From IMG/VR virus record IMGVR_UViG_3300042298_003786, positions 1 to 27,269 of that record: 27,269 nt of DNA. One strand, given 5' to 3'. A program made the translations under genes and the position numbers. Positions 706-18,987 of this stretch are shown piece by piece. Each line of letters begins with the position of its first letter. Position 1 is the stretch's first letter. The notes under the pieces were generated by a model, which was given only the letters and a program-made list of their open reading frames with translations, was not told the DNA's origin and did not search any database. This DNA comes from a virus.

Positions 706-734
706 ATTATGCCGCTTCCCCCCAAGAAGGTCCA
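706..734 (-). promoter_or_regulatory. Possible sigma70-type promoter at the polymerase 3' end
   Basis: Minus strand: TGGACC (4 of 6 matches to TTGACA), 17-nt spacer, CATAAT (5 of 6 matches to TATAAT). The -10 overlaps the polymerase stop codon. Transcription would start near 699, upstream of the terminator hairpin, giving a leader of about 80 nt before the GTG of the AT-hook gene. This would explain how that gene is transcribed, but the match is only moderate. Confidence 0.35.
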
Positions 735-2587
735 GTCTCAACATCCACGCGAGACGGGACTTCCAAGGTGACCGCCCTGGCCATGATGTCCGCCGCCTCG
801 CGGGCCTCTTCAACAGTATCAACAGAGATGGCGACCTCGTCGTGGACCTGGAGCAGGAGCTTAAAGCCGGCCTTGTGGAGCGCCACCATGGCAGCCTTGG
901 TCTGATCCGCTGCCGAGCCTTGGATGAGCCTGTTCAGGCCCTTGTAGGTGCCGGCACGCTTGATCCGTTGTCCGTAGGCCATGATCGCCTGCTCGTAGGG
1001 CAGAGCCTTGTTCACGCCGTACTGCACGGGCTCCCAGAGCGGGAAGCGGCACTTGCGGCCCAGGAGCGTGCGGATCGCGCCACCGGAGCCGGGGTGTTCG
1101 ATGCGGCGCATGACCGCGTCCACCGTGCCACGAAGGAAGGGGACCTTGCTGTGGAAGGTTCCGATGAGCTCGCTCGCCTCTTCCAAGGGCAGGTCCAGGC
1201 TGTTGGCAAGCTTTTGTTTGCCCATGCCGTACATGAGCCCCAGGCCGATGGTCTTGGCGGCCTTGCGTTTGATGCCAGCCATGTCCGCGACCATCTGGTG
1301 GAAGTCCGTATCTGGGTTCTTACGGTAGGCGTCGGCCATTTTCTCAGCGCCCGGGAGGCCTAGAAGTGTGGCGTAGTGGACCAGGAGCCGTGGTTCTTGA
1401 GACGAGAAGTCATTAGCCGCCCAGAGGTTGCCTTCTTCGGGGAGGAAGAGGCTGCGTACCATGGGGCCGATGATTTCGTGTCGGGCCGGAACCTGTTGGA
1501 GGTTGGGGTTGGCGGCGGACAGGCGGCCGGTGACCGTGCCGCCGTCTTCGTTCCGCATTTGGTTGAAGTGCGTATGGATGCGGCCGTCGCGGCGGGCGTG
1601 CTCGAGATAGGGCGTGAGGAACGTGCCGTGGGTCTTGTTCAGTTCTCGCGCCTCCACGATCATCTTGGCCATGGGGTGCTCGTGGGTGTCCAGGAAGCTC
1701 TTGGTGAAGCTCGGTGCCCCTTGAGCCGTGCGCGGGTACTCGATGCCCAGCTTGTCAAAGGCCTTGGCGATGCTGGCCGCTGCCCAGATATCGACCTGCG
1801 TTCCAGCCTGCTCCTTGAGCGTTTGCAGGAGCTGCTTTTCCTTGTGCCGCATGTCGTGAACAAGACGCTCGCACTGAGTACTATCGAAACGTATCCCGCG
1901 ATAGGTGACGTCTATCAGTATAGGGAGGAGGTCGATCTCGAGATTGAAGATCGACTCGACATCTTCAGATCGCAGGAGCGCTTTGAAGTGATGCCAGATC
2001 TTGAGCGTGAGCGCGGCGTCTTGCTCGGCGTACTCGCCCACGTGCATGGCGGGGAGTTTCCAGAGTTCCTTTTTGGCGTGTACTCCGAAGTCTCCAGCAG
2101 CCTCTTTCAGGCCCTGCTCTGATTTGACTTCTTTAAGGTAGTCAAAGCCCAAGGCGTTGAGGCTGTAGCTGAAGCGGTTCTCGTCCAAGAGGGGCGCGGC
2201 GATCATCGTGTCGTAGATGCGGCCGTTGACCGTGAAGCCTGAAGCTCGAAGCCAGCCTATGTCGTAGGCGGCGTTGTGGCAGATTTTGTCAGCCGGCGTA
2301 GCAAGGACGTCGCCAATCCAACGCTCCACAATACGGCGATCGAGATTGCCACCACCGGCATGAGCAACAGGAAAATAACCAGCCCACCCATCCACTGCAA
2401 TAGCGTAACCAACGATGTAGCCATCTCGGCGCGGCCAGCCGGGCCCCATCGACTCCATGTGCGGATCACACGTTTCGAGGTCAATTGCGATCTCCTTGGC
2501 TTCGCTTAAGTTGGGGAATGTTTGAGGTGGCAGCCACTCAGATACGCGGGGGAACATGGGGAGTGTGGATAGGTCACGTTTCTTCAC
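707..2587 (-). CDS. Family-A DNA polymerase with 3'-5' exonuclease
   Basis: 626 aa; replicates the phage genome. The N-terminal proofreading exonuclease keeps all motifs: Exo I D36-x-E38, Exo II N105-x3-D109, Exo III Y186-x3-D190. The polymerase half shows TGRLSAANPNLQ at 353-364, motif A with catalytic D393 (DFSSQEPR), motif B R441-x3-K445-x3-L449-x2-x-Y453-G454, and motif C HDE with catalytic D583. There is no 5'-3' exonuclease domain, as is usual for phage enzymes of this size. The residue matching E. coli Pol I Phe762 is leucine (L449, codon at 1241-1243). The GTG start at 2587 overlaps the helicase stop by 4 nt (GTGA) and is preceded by AAAAGGA, so translation is probably coupled to the helicase. 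A complete active enzyme is expected. Confidence 0.96.
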   Translation of the reverse strand: MKKRDLSTLPMFPRVSEWLPPQTFPNLSEAKEIAIDLETCDPHMESMGPGWPRRDGYIVGYAIAVDGWAGYFPVAHAGGGNLDRRIVERWIGDVLATPADKICHNAAYDIGWLRASGFTVNGRIYDTMIAAPLLDENRFSYSLNALGFDYLKEVKSEQGLKEAAGDFGVHAKKELWKLPAMHVGEYAEQDAALTLKIWHHFKALLRSEDVESIFNLEIDLLPILIDVTYRGIRFDSTQCERLVHDMRHKEKQLLQTLKEQAGTQVDIWAAASIAKAFDKLGIEYPRTAQGAPSFTKSFLDTHEHPMAKMIVEARELNKTHGTFLTPYLEHARRDGRIHTHFNQMRNEDGGTVTGRLSAANPNLQQVPARHEIIGPMVRSLFLPEEGNLWAANDFSSQEPRLLVHYATLLGLPGAEKMADAYRKNPDTDFHQMVADMAGIKRKAAKTIGLGLMYGMGKQKLANSLDLPLEEASELIGTFHSKVPFLRGTVDAVMRRIEHPGSGGAIRTLLGRKCRFPLWEPVQYGVNKALPYEQAIMAYGQRIKRAGTYKGLNRLIQGSAADQTKAAMVALHKAGFKLLLQVHDEVAISVDTVEEAREAADIMARAVTLEVPSRVDVETGPSWGEAA

Positions 2588-4083
2588 AATCGAAATCCTT
2601 TTCGCTCGTCTTTCGGCAACACGATGTGGAGCGTCTGCTTGGCGCGTGTGATGCCGACATAGAGCAGGCGGTTGATGTCATCCGCATTGCGGTCGTATTC
2701 CTTGGCGAACTTGGTCGTCAAGTCCCCCATCAATAGTACGTTGTCGGCCTCACCGCCCTTGGCCGCGTGGATCGTGGAGAGCTTGATCGGCACTTTGCCC
2801 GTGAGCCGTGTTCCGCGACGCAGAACAGCGATCAAGTAATGGCGCTGGTTCTCCGCGATCTTGGTCAGGGCCTCATGCCAAATGGCATCCGACAGAAGGC
2901 CGTGCTTTTCTTTCAGGGAATCGAGGGTGTACATCGCACCCGGGTCGGCCGTGCGCAGGCCCTTGTAGCCGTGCTTCACGAGCTTGGTGTCGAGGTACTT
3001 GTAGATCGTCTGGACGACATTGAAGGGCACCTCTTGGCCCTTGCGAAGGCGCTCCCAGCCAATGACAGCGGTGAGCACGGACTCGGGGATGGACCGTTGT
3101 CCGAAGCGCTCAAAGAGTAGGCCCTGGCTTTTCAACCAGTCGTACATGTCGGTCAGCATGTAGTTGGCGGCAGCGAGGATCAGCCAATCGCCTTGTGCGA
3201 CGTTGACGTCATGCCAGTCCTGGTAATAGTGGATGCTGCCGACTTCTTCGCGGGCACGCCACTCCTTGGGCTGGCGTTTTTTGATCCGGTGGACGACGGC
3301 GTTCGCAAGCTTGTGGATCTTGGCCGGCACGCGGTAGGACTGCTCGAGCACTTTGATCTGGCCCGCGAAGTTCAAGAAGCTATCGACGTCGGCCCCGGCC
3401 CAGGTGTAGATGGCTTGGTCATCGTCGCCTGCCAGAAAGCAGCGCTGGGAGCGCAACGCGAGTTGCTCTACCAGCCTCCATTGCAAAGGTGAAAGGTCCT
3501 GTGCTTCGTCGATGATGAGCGCCTCGAGCCGTGGCAAGCGCTCCGGCTGCTGGACGATCATCTCCAGGAGGTCAGTGAAGTCCAGAAGGTTGCGGGCGTT
3601 CTTGTAGTGACGGTACGCACGCTCGATGAATTCAAAGTAGTACCACTCGATTTCAATCTCTGAGCGGTTGTAGTGTTCGCGCAGGTCCAGGCCCTTGATC
3701 CGTGCGATGTTGATCTCGTTCAGAATCGGATGATCCGTCTTGACAATGAAATCTTCTTCGCCAGTGTCAGTTGCGAGCGTGATGCCGGCCTCGCGTGCGA
3801 ACTCTTGGTAGTGCTCGACATCCATCATGTCTTTTGTGCCAAGGCCCAGGCAGCGGTAGGCGAGGCTGTGGAGCGTCCTGAACCAAGGGAAGTCCGTGTC
3901 AGGCTTCAGGTGCGGGAACTTTGCAACGCCCCGCTCCTTGGCTTCGTTTGCGGCCTTGCGCGTAAAAGCAAAGTAGCCGATCTGTGCGGGCGAGACACCG
4001 GACTCGAGCTCATGCTCAACGATGCCCAACAGGAAGGTTGTCTTGCCTGATCCCGGAGGGCCGAAGACTTTGGTGATGTTCAA
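2584..4083 (-). CDS. UvrD/Rep-like superfamily 1A DNA helicase
   Basis: 499 aa; ATP-driven 3'-5' DNA unwinding is expected. Walker A GPPGSGKT is at 8-15, motif Ia GYFAFTRKAA at 36-45, Walker B IIDEAQD at 190-196, motif III AGDDDQAIYTWAGA at 218-231, motif IV EQSYR at 247-251, motif V STIHAAKGGE at 436-445 and motif VI LLYVGITRAK at 473-482, with the arginine finger at R480. It is much shorter than bacterial UvrD (about 720 aa), with reduced 1B/2B inserts, as in phage forms. The start is TTG at 4083, overlapping the primase stop as TTGA, with a strong site (GAAAGGGAG) 8 nt upstream. Placed between primase and polymerase, it is the only replicative helicase candidate on this operon. A repair role is the alternative. 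Confidence 0.93.
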   Translation of the reverse strand: MNITKVFGPPGSGKTTFLLGIVEHELESGVSPAQIGYFAFTRKAANEAKERGVAKFPHLKPDTDFPWFRTLHSLAYRCLGLGTKDMMDVEHYQEFAREAGITLATDTGEEDFIVKTDHPILNEINIARIKGLDLREHYNRSEIEIEWYYFEFIERAYRHYKNARNLLDFTDLLEMIVQQPERLPRLEALIIDEAQDLSPLQWRLVEQLALRSQRCFLAGDDDQAIYTWAGADVDSFLNFAGQIKVLEQSYRVPAKIHKLANAVVHRIKKRQPKEWRAREEVGSIHYYQDWHDVNVAQGDWLILAAANYMLTDMYDWLKSQGLLFERFGQRSIPESVLTAVIGWERLRKGQEVPFNVVQTIYKYLDTKLVKHGYKGLRTADPGAMYTLDSLKEKHGLLSDAIWHEALTKIAENQRHYLIAVLRRGTRLTGKVPIKLSTIHAAKGGEADNVLLMGDLTTKFAKEYDRNADDINRLLYVGITRAKQTLHIVLPKDERKGFRL

Positions 4084-5609
4084 AACGGGCTCCCTTTCTT
4101 CTGCTCAGGAGAATCGAAAGGCGCGTCTTGCTTGGCAAAGGCAGGCATGTGCCAGCAGCGCACGGTCCTGTTTTTTATGAAGAGGCTGATGGGCTCGCCA
4201 CCCAGTTCGCGCAGGCGCTGCGCAATCTTCGCGGTGGATAGGCCCTTGAAGTTGCTGCGAAGCAAATGAGCCTCGAGGTCTTTCATGCGGAAGTAGACAC
4301 GAGCATCGTCCTCGTTCACCCAAGGACGGCCCATGAGCAACTCATCACGGTCCATGGCCTGTTGTCGGTGGGCCGCGAACTCTTCCAAGAGGTCATTGAA
4401 GCGCCCGGTCAAGCTCGTGTCTTCAGGCGCTTCGACGATCTGCTCGCTCTCGACCATCTCGCGCAAGAGCGCGTTGAGCGTCTGCTCCCAGTCTTGCTTA
4501 CGCAGCGTCGGAGGAAGCACGTTGATCTTCTCCAAGCACGCCTTCTGAAAAGCGGCTTGGTTAAAGAGCGCCTCGGTGTCGAGCTCGATGCGGCGGCCGT
4601 TAATGTCGAGGAACCAAAGCGGTGGCTCGCTGTTGTACTTCGAGAGCGACGACATCTGCGGGCTGTCCGGGCCGTCTGCGCCCACGCCGTACTTGCGCGT
4701 GCGGCACAGGCCACTATTGCAGAATTGGTTGAGCGGGGCGTCCTTGCACTTGTACTTGTAGTCTTTCTTGTGGAGCTGCTTGATGATGATCTGGAGCTCG
4801 TTGTTCGGGAGCGGCGGACCTACGTACTTGAGGTTGTGCTCAACGAGCTTGTCATCCCAGTGCACGGGGTCCAAGCGCTTCAGATAAATGCCGATGTTGA
4901 AGAGCGAATTGTTCCGTGTTCCTTCAGGCACGCCCTGTGTGCAAAGCGTCTGAAGGCAGGGCGGCCCATCCTTGATTGGGTGGTCAGGCTTCTTGGGTTC
5001 CTCAGGAGGCTCTTGGTCCGGGGGCCGTGCCCACTGGGCATGCAGTTCGTAGAACTCTTCGAGGGTCGCGGCGCTGCCATCGTCGCGGATGGCGTAGCGC
5101 ATGGTCTGATCACCGCCGAAGTAGGGCAGGTTCAAGAAGTTGCCGGTGTCGCCGCGCTCGACCAGGATCTCGGCCTGCTTAGGGAATATCTCGCGCCCTG
5201 CTTCGCCCAGCACTGCTGCGCAGGCCTTGAGGTAGCGCTGCATGTTGAGGGCAGGCATGGGCTCTGTGGAGAAGCGAAAGACGTGAGCGCCGCCCGACTT
5301 GCTGCGGCAGACGACGAGCGGGAGCTCAAGCTTGCGGATTTTTTGGACGAGCCCCGCGTGGTCAAGCGGGTACTGGTCGATGTCAATGCAGCCCCAGATG
5401 CAGGTGTTGTCTGCGCGAATGGGGATGATGCCAAGAGAGGGTTCGACGCCTTCGAGGTGCTTGACCCAGAGGTCGTCGGTCGGAGGCTTGCGGACGACAA
5501 CGGCTTTGCCGGCTTGCTTGCCGCTTTCCTTCGATGTCTCGATCTTGTACGTCCCGTAGGCGACGTCTAGACCGCTGAAGATTGCCTTGAAACGGGTGAT
5601 ATCAGTCAT
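4080..5609 (-). CDS. Archaeo-eukaryotic-type primase (AEP/PrimPol) with PriL-like Cys module
   Basis: 509 aa; expected to make primers for the polymerase. The AEP catalytic core is seen at about 60-165: motif I D76-I-D78, motif II S105-G-G-A-H109, and the typical run GNFLNLPYFGG at 156-166 following a beta strand that ends in ILVERGD. Residues about 216-310 carry PPC (C218), an RNNSLF helix, then C288, C297 and C302 before RKYGVG. This spacing recalls the C-terminal domain of archaeal/eukaryotic primase large subunit PriL, which binds a 4Fe-4S cluster; zinc binding is the alternative. Residues about 435-500 look like a winged-helix end domain. The ATG at 5609 has AGAAAGAAGAA before it. TOTE-type or PriCT-type AEP families are the closest I can name. 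The gene overlaps the helicase gene by 4 nt. Confidence 0.82.
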   Translation of the reverse strand: MTDITRFKAIFSGLDVAYGTYKIETSKESGKQAGKAVVVRKPPTDDLWVKHLEGVEPSLGIIPIRADNTCIWGCIDIDQYPLDHAGLVQKIRKLELPLVVCRSKSGGAHVFRFSTEPMPALNMQRYLKACAAVLGEAGREIFPKQAEILVERGDTGNFLNLPYFGGDQTMRYAIRDDGSAATLEEFYELHAQWARPPDQEPPEEPKKPDHPIKDGPPCLQTLCTQGVPEGTRNNSLFNIGIYLKRLDPVHWDDKLVEHNLKYVGPPLPNNELQIIIKQLHKKDYKYKCKDAPLNQFCNSGLCRTRKYGVGADGPDSPQMSSLSKYNSEPPLWFLDINGRRIELDTEALFNQAAFQKACLEKINVLPPTLRKQDWEQTLNALLREMVESEQIVEAPEDTSLTGRFNDLLEEFAAHRQQAMDRDELLMGRPWVNEDDARVYFRMKDLEAHLLRSNFKGLSTAKIAQRLRELGGEPISLFIKNRTVRCWHMPAFAKQDAPFDSPEQKKGSPF

Positions 5610-5662: not shown

Positions 5663-6439
5663 TCAGAATGGTGCGTCAGTGGGTGTTCCCTCTGCACCCT
5701 CGTGCTTGACCTTCACGTCGCCGGCCGACACCGACTGCGCGAATGCCTTGCAGGTCTGGTACATGCCTGCGTCTTCGACCGGACCAAAGCGCTCAACTTC
5801 CCAGCCGTACCACTTGCCCTTGTCGTTGCTTTCAGCAACGGTCGTGAGCCAGTAGATTTGGCTGTACATCGGAGGCGTGAAGAGACCGTTCTTGCCCTGC
5901 ATCTTGACGCTCTGCATCATGCTGTTCCACTTGCGGCTCTTTTTGAGCTGCGTGGACTTCATGCTGATAAGCGCAGGGCTCGGAACGCCGTCCTCGTCCA
6001 AGACCATCACGTAGTGATTGGCCGTGTTCTCGATGTAGTTTCCGTTGTCGAGATAGTCCTTGTTGTCGCCCGGCTCTTTGTGGGTCTTCGACAGAACATC
6101 GCTGGTTGCGGGGTGAATGTGGATCGGGGCACCTGTGCCTTGGCCACGCGGAGCCCATTCGATGTACTGGCGAACATAGGCGCACGGAATGACTTGGATG
6201 CCTTTCTTGCCGTCATAGATCTTGCCCGTGACGGTGTTGTAGATCATCCCAGGCATTGCGCCGTCGATCTCACCCACTTCAGGCGAGGTGTTGGTCAAGA
6301 GCCGCAGGAATGGAAGTGCATAGTCTTCCTGCGTCATACCGTCAAAGCCAGCGCCAGCATCCTGCTCGAGGTCACTGATGATCGCGAGCGCGTTTGTAGA
6401 AGCCGAAACGCCACCTACTGCAACTTGAGTCTTAGCCAT
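5663..6439 (-). CDS. Candidate single-stranded DNA-binding protein
   Basis: 258 aa. I recognise the overall type: a conserved phage replication-operon protein with aromatic/basic runs such as YIEWAPRG, LKKSRKWNSMM and YSQIYWLTTV that could contact ssDNA through an OB-like beta fold. The C-terminus is acidic-to-polar and ends TPTDAPF, resembling the SSB tail (D-x-P-F ending) used to recruit replication partners. Position directly before primase, helicase and polymerase fits an SSB acting in the replisome. The start ATG at 6439 has AAGGATCAGGA upstream. SSB function is inferred from tail and context, not from a diagnostic catalytic motif; a structural or recombination-mediator protein remains possible. 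Confidence 0.5.
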   Translation of the reverse strand: MAKTQVAVGGVSASTNALAIISDLEQDAGAGFDGMTQEDYALPFLRLLTNTSPEVGEIDGAMPGMIYNTVTGKIYDGKKGIQVIPCAYVRQYIEWAPRGQGTGAPIHIHPATSDVLSKTHKEPGDNKDYLDNGNYIENTANHYVMVLDEDGVPSPALISMKSTQLKKSRKWNSMMQSVKMQGKNGLFTPPMYSQIYWLTTVAESNDKGKWYGWEVERFGPVEDAGMYQTCKAFAQSVSAGDVKVKHEGAEGTPTDAPF

Positions 6440-6468
6440 GATTCCTGATCCTTGGTTCGTGATAAATG

Positions 6469-7023
6469 TTAAGCAGACTTGATAGTTGCTTTCTGGCCGA
6501 TGAACACGCCAAAAAGCTCCGAATCGACGGGTTGCCCCTTCTCGATCCGTTCCTTCACCCAGGCCTTGAGAGTCTGGGGCTCCACTTTCTCCGTCTGCTC
6601 GGGGATGAACCCTTGCTCGCGAAGAAGCTGGATCATGCGGGCGGCAAGCTCGTCCTCTTTCCGCCCAAATCGAACACTGACGGTGTTCTTGATGATGTCG
6701 TCAAAGCCATGGTCGCGCAGCCACTTGAACGCCTCAGCCTGCCGTGCCTTGGAGATGCTGGCTCCGTAGAACGGCTTGACATCAATCATCGACCCATCCT
6801 CCATGACAAACTTCTTCATGCCCGCTTCGGCCATGGCCTCGGGGATGGACACCTCAGTGAGGTTGCGGTACTGCTCTTCCTTTTCCTTCAACGACGCGCC
6901 GAGGTCCTCGAGCTCTTTCTCAAGCATCTTGGCACGCTTGGCGAGACCGGCAATGCCAGACACGCTTTCATCCGACACCTTGAGGGCGTCGGCGTCGTTC
7001 TCAAACAGGTTAGTAAGAGTCAT
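6469..7023 (-). CDS. Coiled-coil phage protein of unknown function
   Basis: 184 aa from the ATG at 7023, chosen because TTCAAGAAAGGAGA lies 5 nt upstream. Residues about 18-55 (AKRAKMLEKELEDLGASLKE...) form a charged heptad-rich coiled coil. The rest is a compact alpha/beta region with FVMEDGSMIDVKPFYGA and a helix-rich end (LKAWVKERIEKG) finishing GVFIGQKATIKSA. I do not know a function. It overlaps the end of the preceding gene by 14 nt and lies in the replication operon just ahead of the SSB-like gene, so a role as a replication or host-takeover accessory protein is plausible. Confidence 0.8.
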   Translation of the reverse strand: MTLTNLFENDADALKVSDESVSGIAGLAKRAKMLEKELEDLGASLKEKEEQYRNLTEVSIPEAMAEAGMKKFVMEDGSMIDVKPFYGASISKARQAEAFKWLRDHGFDDIIKNTVSVRFGRKEDELAARMIQLLREQGFIPEQTEKVEPQTLKAWVKERIEKGQPVDSELFGVFIGQKATIKSA

Positions 7024-7345
7024 CAGATTCTCCTTTCTTGAACAAATCAACCTCGATGGGGATGTAGCGGTGCTCGCGCTTGTCCCACTTGAGGCACTTA
7101 AAACGGCCGTTGTTACGGGCCGCAGCTACTGCGCAGCAGATGCCGATCGCAGAGGGGTCGCCAATGAGGAGCAGGTAGTCCTCATCAGAGAATTTTTCCA
7201 GTTTGCGCTGAACGCGGCGCACAGTGGGTACGACGCTGAACGCGACTTGCGCATTGGGCGGGAGGATTGTTTCAATTTTGCCGTAGTCCAAAGCCGACGC
7301 GATGTTGTGCGTGGTTGTTTCGGATACGACGTAGACAGTAGGCAC
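7010..7345 (-). CDS. Small phage protein of unknown function, first gene of replication operon
   Basis: 111 aa starting at GTG 7345 with GAGAAAGGAGA 6 nt upstream. It begins PTVYVVSETTTHNIASALDY and has a hydrophobic beta strand YLLLIGDPSAIGICCAVAAA in the middle, then LKWDKREHRYIPIEVDLF. The pattern suggests a small alpha/beta (possibly nucleotide-binding-like) fold; no catalytic motif is visible. Similar short proteins occur at the start of replication modules in environmental phages, as I recall, but without known function. Being first from the promoter it is probably made early and in quantity. Confidence 0.8.
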   Translation of the reverse strand: MPTVYVVSETTTHNIASALDYGKIETILPPNAQVAFSVVPTVRRVQRKLEKFSDEDYLLLIGDPSAIGICCAVAAARNNGRFKCLKWDKREHRYIPIEVDLFKKGESDDSY

Positions 7346-7357
7346 TGAATTTCTCCT

Positions 7358-7385
7358 TTCTCAAGTAGAGCGGCCAGTGTACACT
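7358..7385 (+). promoter_or_regulatory. Possible rightward promoter of the SNF2/nuclease operon
   Basis: Plus strand: TTCTCA (4 of 6 to TTGACA), 16-nt spacer, TACACT (4 of 6 to TATAAT). The -10 is the other half of the palindrome used by the leftward promoter, so the two promoters would share one binding element. A transcript would start near 7392 and carry the 7395-7410 stem-loop in its leader. Confidence 0.4.
7376..7385. repeat. Perfect 10-bp palindrome, candidate operator
   Basis: AGTGTACACT equals its own reverse complement and sits near the middle of the 85-bp gap between the two divergent operons, covering both predicted -10 boxes. A dimeric regulator such as the ribbon-helix-helix protein encoded at 44-616 could bind here; that pairing is only a guess. 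Confidence 0.5.
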
Positions 7386-7406
7386 ACGCGGTACGGGCTT
7401 TGTCAA
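7376..7406 (-). promoter_or_regulatory. Leftward sigma70-type promoter of the replication operon
   Basis: Minus strand: perfect -35 TTGACA (7406-7401), then either TGTACA at 17-nt spacing or TACACT (4 of 6 matches) at 19-nt spacing. The expected start is near 7369, only a few bases before the ribosome binding site of the GTG-7345 gene. The -10 lies in a 10-bp palindrome and the -35 in a hairpin, so repressor control is likely. No other promoter is seen ahead of this operon. Confidence 0.6.
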
Positions 7407-7410
7407 GCCC
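7395..7410. repeat. Stem-loop GGGCTT-TGTC-AAGCCC upstream of SNF2 gene
   Basis: A perfect 6-bp inverted repeat with a 4-nt loop. As DNA it overlaps the leftward -35 box; as RNA it would form a hairpin immediately before the Shine-Dalgarno of the SNF2 gene, with 4 bases between. It could be an operator, an RNA stability element or both. Confidence 0.5.
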
Positions 7411-7430
7411 CTTCAAGAAAGGAGATCCAC

Positions 7431-8882
7431 GTGGACCATTTTCTCTCGACGTACCCGTTCAAGAACAAGCCCTTTACCCATCAAGCTGCTTACCTTGAGC
7501 GCTTCTGGGATGAGCGCGTAGCTGCGCTTTTCGCGGACACCGGCACGGGCAAGAGCTATATGCTCATCAACAACATCGCGATGCTCTACGACAAGGGCAA
7601 GATCAACGCGGCCCTGATCGTAGCGCCCAAGGGTGTCTACCGCAATTGGTTGCGCATCGAGATACCTAAGCACATGCCTGACCATGTCGTCTATCGCATG
7701 GCGATCTGGTCTCCAAGCCCACGAAAAGCAGAGCAGCAGGCGCTCGACCGGCTGTTCGAGGTGAGCGAGGACTTGAAAATCTTGATCATGAACATCGAGG
7801 CGTTTAGCACGCAAAAGGGCACGTCGTTCGCCACGCGTTTTCTGCTTTCGCATGACGCCTTGATGGCGATCGATGAGAGCACAACGATCAAGTCGCATAC
7901 CTCTGCGCGAAGCAAAAACACCGAGAAGGTTGGAATCGGAGCACGATATAGGCGGATCATGACCGGGTCCCCCGTGACCAAGTCACCAATGGACCTTTAC
8001 CAGCAGTGCGCATTCTTGTCTGATGATTGCTTGAACATCCACAGCTACTACGCGTTCCAAGCGCGATACGCGGTGGTGGTCGAGCGCCACCTTGCGAGCC
8101 ACAGCTTCAAGCAGGTCGTAGGCTACCGGCATCTGGACGAGCTCAAGCTCATGCTCGACACCTTCAGCTTTCGCGTGAAAAAGGAGGAATGTTTTGACTT
8201 GCCAGACAAGGTGTTTTTACGGCGGGATGTCGAATTAACGCCCGAGCAACGTCGGGCATATGACCAAATGGTCCAAGCCGCTTTGGTCACCCTTGAGCAA
8301 GGCATGACGACGACCGCCAACGTCTTGACTCAAATTATGCGCCTGCAACAAATCGTATGTGGCCACATCACTCTGGATAACGGCGATCTGATCCCCTTAA
8401 AGAACAATCGACTTGATGAGTTGCTGGCGGCTATTGAAGAGTCTGATGGCAAGATCATCATCTGGGCCTACTTTCGGCATGACATTGAAGCAATCCAACT
8501 TGCGCTGGCCAAGACCTATGGCATGAGTTCGGTAGAAACGTACTACGGAGACACGCCAGCAGAGAAGCGCTCAGAAATCGTAGATCGGTTTCAAGATCCA
8601 AACAGCGACTTACGGTTCTTTGTGGGGCAGCCGAGAACAGGAGGCTACGGTTTGACGCTTACAGAGGCGCACACCATGATCTACTACTCCAACGGATATG
8701 ACCTGGAGGTGCGCTTGCAATCTGAAGCGCGGATTGATCGGTATGGCCAGAAGCACAAGATGACGTACATTGACCTCACGTCGCCTAATACGGTTGACGA
8801 AAAAATCGTTGAAGCGTTGCAAAAGAAAATGGACATCGCCAACCTTATTCTTGGCGAGCATGCGAAAGAGTGGATACAGTGA
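7431..8882 (+). CDS. SNF2/Rad54-like superfamily 2 helicase
   Basis: 483 aa from the GTG at 7431, which has AAGAAAGGAG 6 nt upstream; an in-frame ATG at 7377 lies in the promoter palindrome and is unlikely. Motif I is DTGTGKS at 36-42, motif Ia LIVAPKGVYRNW at 62-73, motif II DEST at 148-151 (SNF2-type DEAH variant), motif III MTGSPV at 177-182, motif V GGYGLTL at 404-410 and motif VI Q430-S-E-A-R-I-D-R-Y-G-Q440. These define an ATP-dependent double-strand DNA translocase. Phage members are thought to help recombination, replication restart or displacement of bound proteins. It is read opposite to the replication operon and precedes the HNH and exonuclease genes. G+C is about 50-55% in counted lines, lower than neighbours. 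Confidence 0.93.
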   Translation: MDHFLSTYPFKNKPFTHQAAYLERFWDERVAALFADTGTGKSYMLINNIAMLYDKGKINAALIVAPKGVYRNWLRIEIPKHMPDHVVYRMAIWSPSPRKAEQQALDRLFEVSEDLKILIMNIEAFSTQKGTSFATRFLLSHDALMAIDESTTIKSHTSARSKNTEKVGIGARYRRIMTGSPVTKSPMDLYQQCAFLSDDCLNIHSYYAFQARYAVVVERHLASHSFKQVVGYRHLDELKLMLDTFSFRVKKEECFDLPDKVFLRRDVELTPEQRRAYDQMVQAALVTLEQGMTTTANVLTQIMRLQQIVCGHITLDNGDLIPLKNNRLDELLAAIEESDGKIIIWAYFRHDIEAIQLALAKTYGMSSVETYYGDTPAEKRSEIVDRFQDPNSDLRFFVGQPRTGGYGLTLTEAHTMIYYSNGYDLEVRLQSEARIDRYGQKHKMTYIDLTSPNTVDEKIVEALQKKMDIANLILGEHAKEWIQ

Positions 8883-8912
8883 CATGTGATAGGATTGTCT
8901 TATCACATGTCA
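8880..8912. repeat. Perfect 12-bp inverted repeat at the SNF2/HNH junction
   Basis: TGACATGTGATA (8880-8891) and TATCACATGTCA (8901-8912) are exact reverse complements with a 9-nt spacer. The left arm contains the SNF2 stop codon. No T run follows, so it is not a standard terminator on the plus strand. It precedes the HNH gene by 12 nt and could be a processing hairpin, an operator, or a relic of the insertion of the HNH gene. Confidence 0.7.
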
Positions 8913-8924
8913 TTGGAGCTTCAA

Positions 8925-9410
8925 ATGGCGATCAAGCACGGGCACACTCGGGCAAGGAATGGTCGATGGTCAAGCCTTTACATTCGCTTCATGAACTTAA
9001 AGGCCCGTTGTCTTAGGCCCTGTGATCCGGATTATGTCCGCTATGGAGCCAAAGGAATCACGGTTTGTGATCGATGGCGTTACGGAGAAGAAGGGTTGAC
9101 AGGGTTCGAGTGCTTTCTTGCCGACATGGGAGAGCCTCCTTTTGAGAAGGCCAGTATTGATCGAATTGATCCAAGCAAAGGATATGGCCCAGACAACTGC
9201 CGCTGGGCATCTGCAAAAGAGCAAGGAAACAATCGCAGAACAAATCGCTGGGTCGAGATAGAGGGCGAGCGCCTCACCGTCCAACAATGGTCAGAACGTA
9301 GTGGGGTAGGACCAAAGACAATTATCTACCGCTTAAACCAAGGCATTGCTCCCAAGCAGGCGGTCTTTGTAAAGCCCAGTCATGCCCGTAGATGGGCGAA
9401 GGAACTCTAA
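8925..9410 (+). CDS. HNH/homing-type endonuclease with C-terminal helix-turn-helix
   Basis: 161 aa from ATG 8925; TTGGAG lies 6 nt upstream, and the longer in-frame start at 8886 falls inside the inverted repeat. The core YGAKGITVCDRW (40-51), DMGEPP, SIDRIDPSKGYGPDNCRWA (77-95) and EQGNNRRTNR is the signature of a phage HNH-like family related to free-standing homing endonucleases (C48 and C92 may help fold the site). Residues 110-148 (EIEGERLTVQQWSERSGV...) form a helix-turn-helix resembling NUMOD-type DNA-binding modules. It would cut a specific DNA site and promote its own spread. G+C is about 50% against about 65% at the start of the next gene, consistent with acquisition. The stop overlaps the next start as TAATG. 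Confidence 0.8.
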   Translation: MAIKHGHTRARNGRWSSLYIRFMNLKARCLRPCDPDYVRYGAKGITVCDRWRYGEEGLTGFECFLADMGEPPFEKASIDRIDPSKGYGPDNCRWASAKEQGNNRRTNRWVEIEGERLTVQQWSERSGVGPKTIIYRLNQGIAPKQAVFVKPSHARRWAKEL

Positions 9411-10114
9411 TGGCTCATCTGATCCGTCAGCGGCAAGACTTCATCTACCCCACGCTGTCCCGCGTCGATGCGGCAACCGGCCGCGTCTACAAGGTGCCGG
9501 AGTTTGAGAATGTGCCGTCAGTCACGACGATCCTCGACCGGACCAAGGACAAGGCCAAACTCAAAGAGTGGGCCGACCGCGTGGGTCATGAAGAAGCTGA
9601 ACGGATCAAGCGCGAGGCAGCCTACGTCGGCACCACCATGCACGCGACCATCGAGTCGTTCTTGGCCAGTGAGCCGTTGACCATGGGCCAGGACTGGCTT
9701 GCCTTGCGCGGCCATCAAATGGCATTCGCCCTCATCAACCGCCACTTCAAGGACATTGACGTCGTCCACGGCTTTGAGGTGGGCCTGCATTACGAGGGCC
9801 GTTATGCGGGGACCACCGATATGGTTGCAACCTATCGGGGCAAGCTTGCGATTGTGGACTTCAAGCAAGCGCTAAAGCCGAAGCGCCATGAATGGATCAC
9901 GGACTACTACCACCAGCTTGCTGCGTATGCGCTCGCGCACGACAAGATGTTTGGAACGACGATCGAGTTTGGAGTGATCCTCGTGGCCGTGCAAGACGGC
10001 ACGACGCAGGAGTTCACCACAGCCGGCCGAGAGTTTGAGGACTACAAGGCCGGCTGGATGGAGCGACTTAAGCAGGCGGAGGCGGCTGCTGTTGCTGGGC
10101 AGCCATCGCGCTGA
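9410..10114 (+). CDS. PD-(D/E)XK exonuclease, RecB/Cas4-like
   Basis: 234 aa from ATG 9410, overlapping the HNH stop (TAATG); GAAGGAA lies upstream, so the in-frame ATG at 9392 is less likely. The fold's motifs are all visible: H78 in GTTMHATIE, E123, GTTD with D137, D150-F-K152 (the D-x-K catalytic strand) and Q169-x3-Y173. These are the RecB/Cas4-type nuclease residues that bind metal and cut DNA. In phages such enzymes act in recombination, host DNA breakdown or end processing, functionally like T7 gp6. I see no four-cysteine Fe-S cluster as in true Cas4. The 3' end overlaps the convergent virion gene by 47 bp. Confidence 0.9.
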   Translation: MAHLIRQRQDFIYPTLSRVDAATGRVYKVPEFENVPSVTTILDRTKDKAKLKEWADRVGHEEAERIKREAAYVGTTMHATIESFLASEPLTMGQDWLALRGHQMAFALINRHFKDIDVVHGFEVGLHYEGRYAGTTDMVATYRGKLAIVDFKQALKPKRHEWITDYYHQLAAYALAHDKMFGTTIEFGVILVAVQDGTTQEFTTAGREFEDYKAGWMERLKQAEAAAVAGQPSR

Positions 10115-13713: not shown

Positions 13714-16224
13714 TTAGTCTTTCTGGCGAATCTTACCGTTCGGGTGAATGTAGTATGCACCAGAGGGTAGCGCGAGGTAAGCATCCATTCCCTCTTTACT
13801 GTTGATGATCCGTGGCGGCATGCCCAGTTGGGCGCGGAGGTTCCGGACCTCTTCAAAGTTGGCGGCTGCCTTGCGAACGTCGGCGACGTTCATCGTGGGC
13901 GAGTTGTACGACCGGATAGCCCGTTGCTCAAGATTGCCGAGCAGATTGTCCAAACCGAGCAGCCTATTGCGGTAGGCGGTCGGGTTGTCGATGAACTGCG
14001 GCAGAGCGTCCAGTTGGTTTTGGATCTGTTGGCGCTCACTTTCTGTAAAGCGATCGCCCACAGCCAAGGAACGATTGATTTGGTTGGCTGCTACCGACAA
14101 GAAGGTCTTGGCGGTTTGCTCTTGCGGAGCAAGATTACCTAAGCCCGGGAACTTCGAGATCATCGACCCAGCAATTGCAATCGGACCCGTACCTTTCTCT
14201 GCTACGTTGAAGAAGGTGAACTGCTGTTCTTCGGGTGTCAAAGAAAGCGGACGCGTGTCCAAGGGTTTACGCCCCGGAGGAGGCACTGTCCCGGGAGCCG
14301 GGGCCGGTGCGCCAGGAGCCGCGCCAGCCGCAGGAGCGCCCACGGTCGGCGCGCCGAGGGGCACTTGGCCGCTTTGCGGGATGAGATCTTGCCGGCCGCG
14401 AGCGGTGAGCGCCGTGACAACAAACCTCGGAAGCGTCGGCACACGACTAAACCGCTCGCCCGTAACCGGATCGGTTGTCGAGGTTGTATTGCGGTTGATG
14501 TAATCCACCACCGCCGTCTCAAACATCCGATCACCCTCTTCGCCAATCGAACCTGAAGCAAAGCCAGGGGAGAGTTGATAGAAGGTATTGAGCTGTTGTC
14601 CCGTCAAACCTTTGCCGAACCCGGGCGTTGAAGCGGCTGACGCACGCTCTGCTGCGACTTGCAGTATGGTTGCGTTACGGTCCAGCGCGTTTAGGCGAGA
14701 GGTGATGTTGCGATCATCCGCGACACGTTGCTGAAGCTCCATCCGAGCCGTTTCAAGACGCTCACGCAGGGCAAGCCGGTCCGCTTCAAGCGCCTTACGC
14801 GTGTCCTTGTCCAAGGTTGCAGCGGCAAGTTTCCCTTCCATCTCCTTGTCCAAGCGCTCCATCCGCGCAACGTCCTGCGCTTGAGCAATCCGCTCGGCAG
14901 AACCCATCCTGTCACGGCCCAGTGCGTCGCGCATCTCCGCGATTCGCGTATTCAAAGCGTTGACTTGGTTGGCGATGCCCTGCTTCGCTTCCAAATTCAT
15001 CGTAGTCGTCTGAATCTTGTTCTGCAACGCATCCCGCTGACGCTCGGCCTCGGCGATGTTGTTGGCTTCCGACACTAAGCGCCGGGTGTCGTTGTTATTT
15101 TGATTGCGAAGCGTCAACTGCTCTTGCTTATTGCGCTCAATCGCTGACTTGGCTTCCAAAGCTTCTTTTTGCGCCCGCTCACGGCGCTCACCCTCAGTCT
15201 CCCTGACCGCCTGTCCCGACAGGGTGGCAAGCAACCGATCCTGTGAGGTCTGCAAGCGCTGATTGAGATCTTGAATCCGTTGCGCTTCCTTCTCCGCCGA
15301 GCTTAGTGCAGCCGTCTTGACCGCGCGCTCGCCCTTCTCCATCTCCGCGACCCGCGCGCCGATGGTTCCGGGCAGGCCTTGAAAGGCCCCCGCAATGCGG
15401 GCCAGTTGCCCACCACGCATCGGACGTCCACGCTCATCCACATTCGCCGCATAGCCAAAGGCCCGTTGGGCCACGTCAAACAGCATCTGCGCCTGCGAGG
15501 CCGACCGGTCGTCGCCCAACAAGCGGCGATAGTTCGGGAGGCGCTGTTCGTACAAAGTCTGTACGTCGGGCACGGCCTGAGGCCTCTGCCCAAGCGTGGC
15601 TTCAATCCGCGCACGCAACATGTCCCGAACTTCCGGGCTGTACATACCGGCTGAGGAGGGCTCATCAACAGGGGTCACTCCCTCCTCATCGGACCCCTCT
15701 TGAAAACGCTGCACATAGCCGCCCTCTGCCATGGCGATCGGCGCTTGCTCCGGGGCCGGAGGCGCTCCCATCGCGCCCGGAGGCGGCATGGCACCGAGCC
15801 CTGCTCCGGGGCCCATGGGCGGTGGTCCGGGAGGCATGCCCGGGGGCATACCCGGTGCTCCGCCGGGAGGAGGCATCATCGGGGGCTGTGGCCCTTGGGC
15901 CATGGGCGCTGATTGGGGCAACCCGCCAATCCCGCCGCCTTGCGCGAGCACCGGCTGAAGCATCGCGAGCACCGGCTCAGGGGTCTCGGTTGCAGCGGCG
16001 TAGCCAACGAGGTCAGCCAGCTCGTCGCGGCGCGCGTCAATGGAACGCATGTCACCGCGCAGATTGTTCATGAGGATTTCGGGAGAGTCCGGGCGACGCT
16101 CCATCATCTCGTCATCGTCCTCGTCGTCCCCCTCGTCCTCACCGTCATCCATCGAGTCCAAGAAGCCCTGCATGATGCCGATGTTCTCGACATCCGCATC
16201 TTCGTTCATCGCACGGTTTTTCAT
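13714..16224 (-). CDS. Large acidic/Pro-Met-Gly-rich coiled-coil virion protein
   Basis: 836 aa. It starts with an acidic run (residues 28-40 nearly all D/E), then a helical segment 49-95, a low-complexity Pro/Met/Gly region 105-158, and a short motif MAEGGYVQRFQEGSDEEG at 165-182. Residues about 300-545 are a long charged coiled coil. A second Pro/Ala-rich linker follows, then a mostly helical C-terminal domain ending AYYIHPNGKIRQKD. There is no enzyme motif. The architecture and operon position suggest an internal virion or tail-core protein. AAGGATC precedes the ATG and overlaps the stop region of the upstream gene. Function unproven. Confidence 0.75.
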   Translation of the reverse strand: MKNRAMNEDADVENIGIMQGFLDSMDDGEDEGDDEDDDEMMERRPDSPEILMNNLRGDMRSIDARRDELADLVGYAAATETPEPVLAMLQPVLAQGGGIGGLPQSAPMAQGPQPPMMPPPGGAPGMPPGMPPGPPPMGPGAGLGAMPPPGAMGAPPAPEQAPIAMAEGGYVQRFQEGSDEEGVTPVDEPSSAGMYSPEVRDMLRARIEATLGQRPQAVPDVQTLYEQRLPNYRRLLGDDRSASQAQMLFDVAQRAFGYAANVDERGRPMRGGQLARIAGAFQGLPGTIGARVAEMEKGERAVKTAALSSAEKEAQRIQDLNQRLQTSQDRLLATLSGQAVRETEGERRERAQKEALEAKSAIERNKQEQLTLRNQNNNDTRRLVSEANNIAEAERQRDALQNKIQTTTMNLEAKQGIANQVNALNTRIAEMRDALGRDRMGSAERIAQAQDVARMERLDKEMEGKLAAATLDKDTRKALEADRLALRERLETARMELQQRVADDRNITSRLNALDRNATILQVAAERASAASTPGFGKGLTGQQLNTFYQLSPGFASGSIGEEGDRMFETAVVDYINRNTTSTTDPVTGERFSRVPTLPRFVVTALTARGRQDLIPQSGQVPLGAPTVGAPAAGAAPGAPAPAPGTVPPPGRKPLDTRPLSLTPEEQQFTFFNVAEKGTGPIAIAGSMISKFPGLGNLAPQEQTAKTFLSVAANQINRSLAVGDRFTESERQQIQNQLDALPQFIDNPTAYRNRLLGLDNLLGNLEQRAIRSYNSPTMNVADVRKAAANFEEVRNLRAQLGMPPRIINSKEGMDAYLALPSGAYYIHPNGKIRQKD

Positions 16225-16233
16225 GAGTGATCC

Positions 16234-17283
16234 TTAGAAAAGACGGCCCCCGCCGCCGCTTTGATTCGAGGCCTGCTGGGACTGCATCGGATTTTGCCCG
16301 AACGCGGATTGCTGGGACTGCATCGGATTTTGCCCGAACGCGGATTGCTGGGACTGCATCGGACTTTGCCCGAACGCGGATTGCTGGGACTGCATCGGAC
16401 TTTGCCCGAACGCGGATTGCTGGGACTGCATCGGACTTTGCCCGAACGCGGATTGCTGAGACTGCATCGGACCTTGCCCAAATGGGGACTGCATCGGACC
16501 TTGCCCAAGCGGCGGACGTTGGGGCTGTCCGAACATGGCAGGCATCGGACCTTGCCCAAGCGGCGGACGTTGAGGCTGTCCGAACATGGCAGGCATCGGA
16601 CCTTGCCCAAGCGGCGGACGTTGAGGCTGTCCGAACATGGCAGGCATCGGACCTTGCCCAAGCGGCGGACGTTGAGGCTGTCCGAACATGGCAGGCATCG
16701 GACCTTGTCCTAACGGAGGCTGTTGAAGCGGCTCGAACGGGGACTGCTGGGACGGCCCATACGTGGGCGGCTGAGGCTGCCCCATCGTCGACCTATAAAG
16801 CGCTCCGATTCCACCGCCCACTGCCGAAAGCTGCGAAATGCGCTGAAGCTGCTCAGGAAGAAGGCTCATGGGCTGACCCATTCCGGGCGACATCTGCATC
16901 GGCCCTTGGCCCAGCGCCGGAGGCTGGCCGAGTGCTGCTCTAAGCTGACTCATCTCTTCGGCTGGGATCGGCTGCGCCGGCCCTTGCGCCATGCTGGCCC
17001 GAAGCTTCTCCGCCATTTGTTGCGCGAACTCAGGGGTCGTGTAGGGATTTTGCATCGCCTGAGCCTGCGCCATGCCGGCCAGACGCTGCTCCGCCAGCCC
17101 GGCAAATGGCTGTGCCAGTGAGGGAAACGACTGCGCCGGCCCGGCAAGCGGCTGTGCCAGTGAGGGAACCGACTGCGCCGGCCCGGCAAGCGGCTGTGTC
17201 GGCGCGGGTGCAGGACGAGGCGCAAACTGCTCCGCCATCATCTGCCGTGCAGTCGGTCGATTCCGACGTAAAAAACTCCGCAT
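16234..17283 (-). CDS. Gln/Pro/Met-rich repeat protein, putative virion component
   Basis: 349 aa from ATG 17283 (GGGGAG 6 nt upstream; the in-frame TTG at 17289 abuts that site and is unlikely). Residues 1-20 are basic (MRSFLRRNRPTARQ). Three repeat families follow: a 14-residue LAQPLAGPAQSVPS unit, then a 17-residue unit with core LGQGPMPAMFGQPQR in four near-identical copies, then a 12-residue QSAFGQSPMQSQ unit in about five copies. The protein ends SNQSGGGGRLF. Almost all of it should be disordered. I recognise no family. Neighbours are low-complexity virion proteins, so a flexible or filament-like virion part is the best guess. Confidence 0.7.
   Translation of the reverse strand: MRSFLRRNRPTARQMMAEQFAPRPAPAPTQPLAGPAQSVPSLAQPLAGPAQSFPSLAQPFAGLAEQRLAGMAQAQAMQNPYTTPEFAQQMAEKLRASMAQGPAQPIPAEEMSQLRAALGQPPALGQGPMQMSPGMGQPMSLLPEQLQRISQLSAVGGGIGALYRSTMGQPQPPTYGPSQQSPFEPLQQPPLGQGPMPAMFGQPQRPPLGQGPMPAMFGQPQRPPLGQGPMPAMFGQPQRPPLGQGPMPAMFGQPQRPPLGQGPMQSPFGQGPMQSQQSAFGQSPMQSQQSAFGQSPMQSQQSAFGQSPMQSQQSAFGQNPMQSQQSAFGQNPMQSQQASNQSGGGGRLF
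16275..16490. repeat. 36-bp coding minisatellite
   Basis: Five almost identical 36-bp units (16275-16454) and a degenerate sixth, in frame with the 349-aa gene. Differences between full units are single bases (T or C at one site), so the array expanded or was homogenised recently. Confidence 0.9.
16492..16710. repeat. 51-bp coding minisatellite
   Basis: Four near-perfect 51-bp units beginning at 16492, 16543, 16594 and 16645, with a partial fifth from 16696. The units differ at one base (GGGG versus GAGG). It directly abuts the 36-bp array, and both share a core encoding GPM. Confidence 0.9.
17101..17197. repeat. 42-bp coding direct repeat
   Basis: Two 42-bp units (17101-17142 and 17143-17184) plus a partial third, encoding the 14-residue LAQPLAGPAQSVPS-type repeat near the start of the 349-aa protein. 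Confidence 0.8.
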
Positions 17284-17295
17284 TTTCAACTCCCC

Positions 17296-18987
17296 TTAAT
17301 TCCCGAATAGGTTCGCTTTTTTCGCCCCAGTAGCTGCGGCCACCGCCCCGATGCCAATCCCCGCTGCCTGCTGGAACGGGCTGGCAGACGGCTGGCTCGT
17401 GGCAGTCGTCGCCATCTGACTGGACGGCGCGCCACGATAAATATCGGACAGGAACGCCGCCTGCTGGTACGGAGCGTAAACCCGCTGCAAGGTATTCGCG
17501 CGCTGCGCATCCATCAACTGCTGCTGACGTGCCTGCTCGGCCTGACCGACGTTGTACAGGAAGTTGACATCGCCCTGATACATCGCCTGACCCGTCTGGC
17601 CCAGCGCACCCTGCTGAACACCCAACTGACCCATCTGCCCGCCCAACTGACCAAGGCCCAGCGCCTGCTGCTGACCGATGTTGAACTGCTGACCCGCCAA
17701 CTGGCCGATGCCCTGTCCAATGTTCTGGAACTGACCCGCCTGCTGGCCGTAAATGTTCGCAATCCCCTGCCCCGCCTGCATCATCTGCCCGGCGGCCTGC
17801 TGTCCGAGGCCTGCTTGCTGGATGCCCAACTGCCCCAAGCCTTGACCCGCACCAATCTGCTGCGCCGCCAAGTTGCCGTACAAGCCCGCCGCGCCCTGCT
17901 GCAACTGCCCCTGCTGACCAGCGGTCTGAGCTTGCAGTTGCCCGGCCTGTGCAAGCTGCTGCGCCGCGTTCTGGCCCAAGCCCGCCTGCTGCGCGGCAAT
18001 CGCGGCCTGCTGCGCGCCCAACTGCCCAATGCCCTGCGCACCAGCCATCTGCCGCTGCTGCTGTTGCTCAAACGTGGCGATTGCATTGGCCTGCGCTTGG
18101 TTGTAGCCTTGGCTCAACAGATTCGCGATCGTCCCCGCCTTCTGCTCCATCAGGCCACGCTCAAGCTCCGCACGCTGCACACCCTCCCGCGTGCCCCCAA
18201 ACGCCCCAGACCGAACCGCCTGAGCCGATAGGTTTTGTTGTGCAATCTGGCCTTGGCGATTGATTTGGCGCATCGCCTCGTCAATCACCTGCTGCTGATA
18301 CGGGTTCATGAAGCCTTGAGCCGCAGCCAAGTTGTACCCCTGAGCCGCCCCACCCAACTGCCCCAAGCCCTGCTGAATCGTCTGCTGCGCGGCGGCAAAG
18401 CCCGGCTGTGCAGCAGCTAGGCGCGCTTCTTCTGCAGCGGACATGGCGGTCTGAACGCCTTGGCCAAAGCCCGGCTGCTGGCCTGACAAGGCAGCCATTT
18501 GCTGCGCTTGCGAGAGCCCTCCCATCCCCTGCTCGATGGCCTGCGTGGCAGGAGTCAGATTGGCCTGAGAGTTCAGGAGCGCAAGCTGCTGGCCCGTGGT
18601 CAACGCGCCAAGGCCCGAGCTGATCCCGGCCGCCGCGCCCCCTGCCCGCTGGATGGCCTGCTGTGCGTCGGTAAACTGCCCACGCGTATCGGCACCTCGC
18701 AGGATGTCCGCAGCTTCTCCGGTCGTTCTAACACCGCCTGCGAGCGACTGCTGGGCAGCGGTCAGGGCGGGGGTGAACGCGCCGATTCCGGTGTCGTAGG
18801 CGCTTCGGATCGCAGTCTGCTGCCCGGGGGCAAACGCAGCGATTTCATACGCGGGAATCTGTTGGGACAGCGGCGTGCGATCGACGTTGAATGCAAGATT
18901 CTGTGCCTCTTGCAACAACTTCATCTTATAGGCTTCAACCTCCGGGGCTTCCCGGACGATTTGCTGCTGGGTGGTGATTTCTGCCAT
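17296..18987 (-). CDS. Gln/Gly/Ala-rich virion protein with short Gly-Gln periodic repeats
   Basis: 563 aa. The N-terminal third is helical. Residues 226-275 hold the most conserved-looking part: GFMNPYQQQVIDEAMRQI and SGAFGGTREGVQRAELERG, a pattern I associate with structural proteins of marine and freshwater podophages. Residues about 320-480 are a long run of Q/G/A-rich near-repeats (GLGQLG, QQAGLGQ, IGQ), probably an elongated helical or beta-solenoid-like rod. The end is Ala/Gly-rich (FQQAAGIGIGAVAAATGAKK). No catalytic motif. The ATG directly follows the upstream stop (TAAATG), with GGGGAAA as ribosome binding site. Virion role is inferred from operon context. Confidence 0.75.
   Translation of the reverse strand: MAEITTQQQIVREAPEVEAYKMKLLQEAQNLAFNVDRTPLSQQIPAYEIAAFAPGQQTAIRSAYDTGIGAFTPALTAAQQSLAGGVRTTGEAADILRGADTRGQFTDAQQAIQRAGGAAAGISSGLGALTTGQQLALLNSQANLTPATQAIEQGMGGLSQAQQMAALSGQQPGFGQGVQTAMSAAEEARLAAAQPGFAAAQQTIQQGLGQLGGAAQGYNLAAAQGFMNPYQQQVIDEAMRQINRQGQIAQQNLSAQAVRSGAFGGTREGVQRAELERGLMEQKAGTIANLLSQGYNQAQANAIATFEQQQQRQMAGAQGIGQLGAQQAAIAAQQAGLGQNAAQQLAQAGQLQAQTAGQQGQLQQGAAGLYGNLAAQQIGAGQGLGQLGIQQAGLGQQAAGQMMQAGQGIANIYGQQAGQFQNIGQGIGQLAGQQFNIGQQQALGLGQLGGQMGQLGVQQGALGQTGQAMYQGDVNFLYNVGQAEQARQQQLMDAQRANTLQRVYAPYQQAAFLSDIYRGAPSSQMATTATSQPSASPFQQAAGIGIGAVAAATGAKKANLFGN

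Follow-up and report, generated by a model that had tools for sequence, protein, structure and literature searches.

The DNA analysed here, referred to as the window, is the whole 27,269-base contig of IMG/VR virus record IMGVR_UViG_3300042298_003786, which is flagged as linear and thus represents only part of a viral genome of some 62 kb. On its minus strand it carries, in the order of transcription, genes resembling Pam3 gp32, gp33 and gp34, followed by genes for an archaeo-eukaryotic primase (AEP), a UvrD-like superfamily 1 (SF1) helicase and a family A DNA polymerase (PolA), and on the plus strand an SNF2-type superfamily 2 (SF2) motor gene, an HNH gene and a gene for a RecB-like nuclease lead into the virion genes. 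PolA, SF1 and SNF2 are each backed by strong Pfam and PHROG matches, and the primase has clear ones in its AEP domain. A first-pass annotation of the window had described primase, helicase and polymerase as a row of genes joined by 4-nucleotide overlaps (TTGA and GTGA) with non-ATG starts, and this arrangement is borne out by the open reading frames (ORFs), the strong family matches and the ribosome sites. The three enzymes had been named correctly, but the SNF2 motor had been overlooked and the interval assigned to the replisome left out both PolA and SNF2. Comparison with related phages supports the view that primase, SF1, SNF2 and PolA make up the phage's own replication module, which in complete and near-complete relatives occurs without a ring helicase.

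The primase (4080..5609, minus strand, 509 amino acids) matches Pfam AEP-TOTE (PF22548) with an E-value of 2.6e-11 and a score of 44 bits against a cut-off of 27, as well as PHROG 21866, 'primase'. It consists of an N-terminal AEP domain, a middle domain with four cysteines and a C-terminal winged-helix-like domain. In an alignment of 13 divergent phage primases, the DxD and sxH motifs (D76/D78 and H109) and the four cysteines (C218, C288, C297 and C302) are invariant. By these sequence features the protein is a member of the AEP superfamily, for which de novo primer synthesis is predicted. The cysteine pattern is reminiscent of the 4Fe-4S-binding domain of PriL, a tentative resemblance, the pLDDT of the model being below 50 over residues 286-358. 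The AlphaFold2 model is usable in the AEP and C-terminal domains only; the closest solved AEP fold is the CRISPR-associated Prim-Pol (CAPP) of Marinitoga (Z 14.9, root-mean-square deviation 3.4 over 187 residues, 21% identity). CAPP (PMC8211822) differs from the phage enzyme in its context, and the latter has the additional cysteine-bearing and winged-helix-like domains. The C-terminal part of the model looks like a winged helix, with weak structural matches that include the C-terminal domains of mobile-element helicases (Cch and SaPI Rep; Z 5-7). Sequence searches of the PDB with the primase, as a single sequence and as a profile, returned nothing useful. Given the AEP-TOTE domain, a TOTE conflict system was considered and rejected, as a defence-type operon is absent and the gene's neighbours, in the window as in every annotated relative, are those of phage replication and the virion.

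The helicase (2584..4083, minus strand, 499 amino acids) matches the Pfam families UvrD-helicase (2.7e-33) and UvrD_C (1.5e-12), PHROG 1967 and the PcrA structure 1pjr (E 1.2e-25). All core motifs are present, and Walker A, Walker B and motif VI are kept in 11 phages. These sequence matches place it in the UvrD/Rep/PcrA-like SF1A group, with 3'-5' unwinding as the predicted polarity. Translation must begin at the TTG codon, since Walker A already starts at residue 8 and there is no start codon further upstream. PolA (707..2587, minus strand, 626 amino acids) combines a DnaQ-like 3'-5' exonuclease with a family A polymerase (DNA_pol_A 6.8e-61, DNA_pol_A_exo1 1.1e-8, PHROG 17; best PDB match 7pbk); a GTG start is likely and an alternative ATG 10 codons further in is possible. 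The exonuclease and polymerase motifs are intact in an alignment across divergent phages. In the O-helix (KTIGLGLMYG) the residue equivalent to Phe762 of Escherichia coli is leucine in the window and in eight of the nine other polymerases aligned, phage R5C having phenylalanine.

Relatives of the module are numerous. Homologues of the primase are encoded in at least 599 IMG/VR stretches, out of 600 candidates, and 80 loci were used for junction and neighbour counts. One close relative, L018 (62,839 bases), shares 86% DNA identity with the window over the module and largely covers its gene order; its capsid, portal and terminase are common to the complete circular phage DSL-LC04 (OR003939, 61,547 bases). 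Among named phages, 25 records matched the primase query, including the Z-genome phages SH-Ab 15497, PMBT28 and K21lambda1, the Nanhaivirus phages R5C, R26L and Pan1, the pelagiphages HTVC023P and HTVC027P, 023Pt_psg01 and others.

The primase/helicase junction of the window reads AAAGGGAGCCCGTTTTGAAC, with the overlap TTGA, and the helicase/PolA junction reads AAAAGGATTTCGATTGTGAAG, with the overlap GTGA; both have a purine-rich ribosome site 6-8 nucleotides upstream. The helicase-PolA overlap is exactly 4 nucleotides in 70 of 70 readable IMG/VR loci, with a start codon that varies between ATG (33), GTG (26) and TTG (11), although these 80 loci are mutually related and the 70 conserved junctions are not 70 independent events. 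The primase-helicase overlap is exactly 4 nucleotides in only 5 of 78 relatives. Most relatives have at least one ORF between the two genes, usually of about 58-119 amino acids and in most cases small and acidic; in L020 the gap holds a 420-amino-acid frame resembling a DNA-cytosine methyltransferase and in L083, L085, L086 and L088 a frame of 575-576 amino acids, both identities being judged by eye. The primase-helicase junction is thus a variable insertion hot spot. Exact 4-nucleotide overlaps also occur in 18 of the 79 same-strand neighbour pairs of DSL-LC04, so that two such overlaps mean little on their own and cannot serve as a sign of unusual coupling. The suggestion in the first-pass annotation that the overlaps imply fixed ratios therefore holds as a plausible one for helicase and polymerase, whose overlap is kept, but not for primase and helicase, and we infer translational coupling from helicase to PolA. 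Nor do the non-ATG starts, to which it had attached meaning at both junctions, prove to be conserved, the helicase start being ATG in 66 of 78 relatives.

The SNF2-type motor lies on the plus strand (7377..8882, an open frame of 501 amino acids; SNF2-rel_dom 1.5e-21, Helicase_C 3.2e-10), its true start being probably downstream of the start of the open frame. Both motors keep constant company with the primase. Of the 25 named phage records that matched the primase, 24 have an SF1 relative, and 78 of the 80 IMG/VR loci have SF1 downstream of the primase, the other two contigs ending there or soon after. Each of the 19 tested records in which the AEP and SF1 genes occur as a pair contains a single SNF2-rel domain alongside one or more UvrD domains. 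Among the named records MW202803 stands apart: its AEP is a different one, it has a gene annotated as DnaB-like (a sub-cut-off DnaB_C match of 24 bits, E 3.5e-7), and it lacks both SF1 and SNF2.

The first-pass annotation had also stated that no DnaB- or gp4-type helicase is visible in the window, and indeed no DnaB_C match was found in its 27,269 bases. Since the window is a fragment, the absence of a ring helicase was examined in relatives, where the genome-wide check for DnaB, gp4 and loaders that it had proposed came back empty. No DnaB_C match above the cut-off was found in 15 named records with the AEP and SF1 pair (including DSL-LC04) or in 17 long IMG/VR relatives (L018 and 16 others), and no Toprim_2 domain, as in DnaG and gp4 primases, in 8 long relatives; phage T7 served as a positive control, with DnaB_C detected at E 6.8e-20 and Toprim_2 detected as well. 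A DnaC/IstB-type loader was not found above the cut-off in the relatives searched, the weak rows including the SF1 of 023Pt. L018 and DSL-LC04 were both negative for DnaB/gp4, for a Toprim primase and for a DnaC-type loader. In a P-loop motif scan of L018 (62.8 kb), SF1 and SNF2 were the sole credible motors, the terminase P-loop escaping the motif. Candidates for a hidden ring helicase were dismissed: the AAA_25 matches were weak and below the cut-off, many of them falling on the P-loops of SF1 and SNF2, and a weak DnaB_C match in one relative (E 0.005, 11 bits) concerned a 302-amino-acid frame with a kinase-like P-loop that by eye is unlike DnaB. Five phages with an SF1 relative outside the list of pairs likewise gave no DnaB_C match, so that the lack of DnaB does not by itself mark out the AEP and SF1 pair.

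Upstream of the primase on the minus strand lie three genes (5663-7345) whose gp32-, gp33- and gp34-like products accompany the primase across several distant phages. The gp34-like protein (5663..6439, 258 amino acids; PF23977 2e-69) has a beta-rich AlphaFold2 model with a pLDDT of 75, the weak top matches of which are mainly OB-fold single-stranded DNA-binding proteins (SSBs) (Foldseek best E 9.3e-3 to RPA; VIA Z 5.4 to the BRCA2 OB; many SSBs at Z 3-4), and from these weak matches it may be put forward as a candidate SSB with a predicted OB-like fold. The gp33-like gene (6469..7050; DUF7307, PF23984 3.5e-34), for which an alternative ATG start exists at 7023 (184 amino acids), is linked to the module in R5C, Pan1, HTVC023P, HTVC027P and 023Pt, and the gp32-like gene (7010..7345; PF23992 1.1e-27) in several relatives. 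On the plus strand, the HNH endonuclease gene (8886-9410), between the SNF2 gene and the RecB-like nuclease gene, is probably a mobile insertion; a gene of this kind at the SNF2-side position was seen in three fetched relatives only (L077, L078 and L080) and is absent in the closest. The RecB/Cas4-like PD-(D/E)XK nuclease (9392..10114, plus strand; PDDEXK_1 1.3e-6; PHROG 298, exonuclease, 3.8e-50) adjoins the module but is not a constant member of it. Further along, highly repetitive virion-type proteins with repeats rich in Q, F and G are encoded at 15700-17300, 24112-25935 and 25958-26941, among them LGTPSSGTLTNATGLPISTGV and GVSATGQVGSV repeats.

The first-pass annotation had presented this replisome as unusual, yet the gene arrangement has been known since 2018 (PMC6302109) and was described again in 2022 (PMC9069017). 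In the earlier study, Nasko et al. sorted virioplankton PolAs by residue 762 and reported UvrD-like helicases, stressed as non-ring, in 68% of their Leu762 Group II, always together with SNF2-like helicases; PolA with UvrD and SNF2 ranked second in abundance among the PolA-helicase combinations that they sampled and was abundant in estuarine viruses (PMC6302109). With its Leu762, its neighbouring UvrD-like SF1 and SNF2-like SF2 and no ring helicase, the gene set of the window matches this published module on sequence grounds. An AEP primase, a constant member here, is not mentioned in the passages of that study consulted. What we add is the constant company of AEP primase and SNF2 and the 4-nucleotide helicase/PolA overlap throughout the clade.

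Relatives at several distances show the same components in other settings. DSL-LC04 has the gene order of the window, with 68-79% protein identity for PolA, SF1 and primase and the capsid, portal and terminase lineage of L018, but an 85-amino-acid ORF separates its primase and helicase, and it has no HNH gene beside SNF2. The Z-genome phages (SH-Ab 15497, PMBT28, K21lambda1 and others) likewise encode an AEP primase, SNF2, a UvrD-like helicase and PolA/DpoZ with Leu762, but in the order primase-SNF2 followed at a distance by helicase-PolA and at about 28-32% protein identity; as a further difference, neither the window nor the annotation of DSL-LC04 shows a recognisable purZ gene. In Nanhaivirus (R5C, R26L, Pan1) and in HTVC023P and HTVC027P, genes like gp33 and gp34 (and gp32 in most) precede the AEP primase and SF1 in the order seen in the window, and SNF2 is present, but in R5C PolA lies further away.

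With the identities of the enzymes, their intact catalytic motifs, their fixed company and the absence of DnaB/gp4-type helicases and DnaC-type loaders read from the sequences, we lean slightly towards a replisome in which the AEP enzyme would lay primers, the Leu762 PolA would extend them, and the UvrD-like SF1, with its predicted 3'-5' polarity, would track along the leading-strand template and open the fork ahead of PolA. The SNF2-type SF2 motor would act as an assistant in initiation, protein removal or fork remodelling, and the 258-amino-acid protein would probably coat single strands. This division of labour, above all the assignment of SF1 as the fork helicase, and the SSB role are inferred. 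That the phage should bring its own helicase is supported by the observation that viruses with a primase gene almost invariably have one for a replicative helicase too (PMC5862659). Among DNA viruses, an SF1 helicase also works with an AEP primase in the herpesvirus helicase-primase UL5-UL52-UL8 (PMC8187027), which we take as an analogy only. By that analogy the module might work like the set of SF1 UL5, AEP UL52, SF2 UL9, SSB and polymerase. UL5 belongs to a different SF1 branch, and the herpesvirus polymerase is of family B.

Several observations weigh against giving SF1 the role of fork helicase. Co-occurrence does not single it out, because SNF2 is equally constant; the helicase-PolA junction is lost in more distant phages, PolA not adjoining the helicase in R5C and MW202510; and we found neither biochemistry nor genetics on any member of the module. 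UvrD-type SF1A enzymes are moreover described as poorly processive (PMC6302109). In an alternative that we consider unlikely, the Leu762 PolA would open the duplex itself by strand displacement, leaving SF1 and SNF2 for recombination, repair, fork restart or roadblock removal; motors of the UvrD family have their classical roles in repair or as accessory enzymes. When viral PolAs were expressed, strand displacement in vitro was seen with two of the five Leu762 enzymes that were active, and the authors link strand-displacing PolAs with SNF2 and propose that the polymerase may unwind in place of a helicase (PMC9069017). However, displacement was seen in some enzymes only and is described there as requiring high enzyme concentration (PMC9069017), and it would leave unexplained both the strict placement of SF1 beside primase and PolA and the joint absence of SF1 and SNF2 from MW202803, where the AEP is accompanied by a DnaB-like gene.

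It is less probable still that host DnaB is recruited, through an unrecognised phage loader or through the primase, for example by its C-terminal winged-helix-like domain. Lambda-type phages do recruit host DnaB, and many small genes with no known function are present that might encode a loader. However, no DnaC/IstB-type loader rose above the cut-off, and the primase is an AEP and not a DnaG, so that DnaB-DnaG coupling is absent. The phage also encodes its own primase and polymerase, a set usually paired with an own helicase (PMC5862659). We regard as improbable, the most so of the three, that unwinding or origin melting is driven mainly by the SNF2-type SF2 protein, with SF1 as an accessory: one SNF2 does occur in all 19 pair records tested, but SNF2 proteins usually translocate along double-stranded DNA without separating its strands (PMC9069017). 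The SNF2 gene of the window moreover lies on the opposite strand, outside the primase-helicase-PolA row. In favour of such a role, SF2 enzymes serve as origin-binding helicases in herpesviruses.

Almost all bacterial and phage forks studied so far are opened by hexameric ring helicases. Here we propose, tentatively and as somewhat more doubtful than the SF1 assignment itself, that a large group of bacterial viruses, with a primase relative in at least 599 IMG/VR stretches, may replicate with a UvrD-type SF1 motor opening the fork, alongside an AEP primase and SNF2, as a counterpart of the herpesvirus helicase-primase and independently of a hexameric helicase. Given that cultivated relatives exist among phages of Acinetobacter, Klebsiella, Salmonella, Providencia, Dinoroseobacter and Pelagibacter, the question is answerable at the bench, and fork opening by a UvrD-type SF1 enzyme in such a common phage group would, if true, represent a distinct and testable type of replisome.

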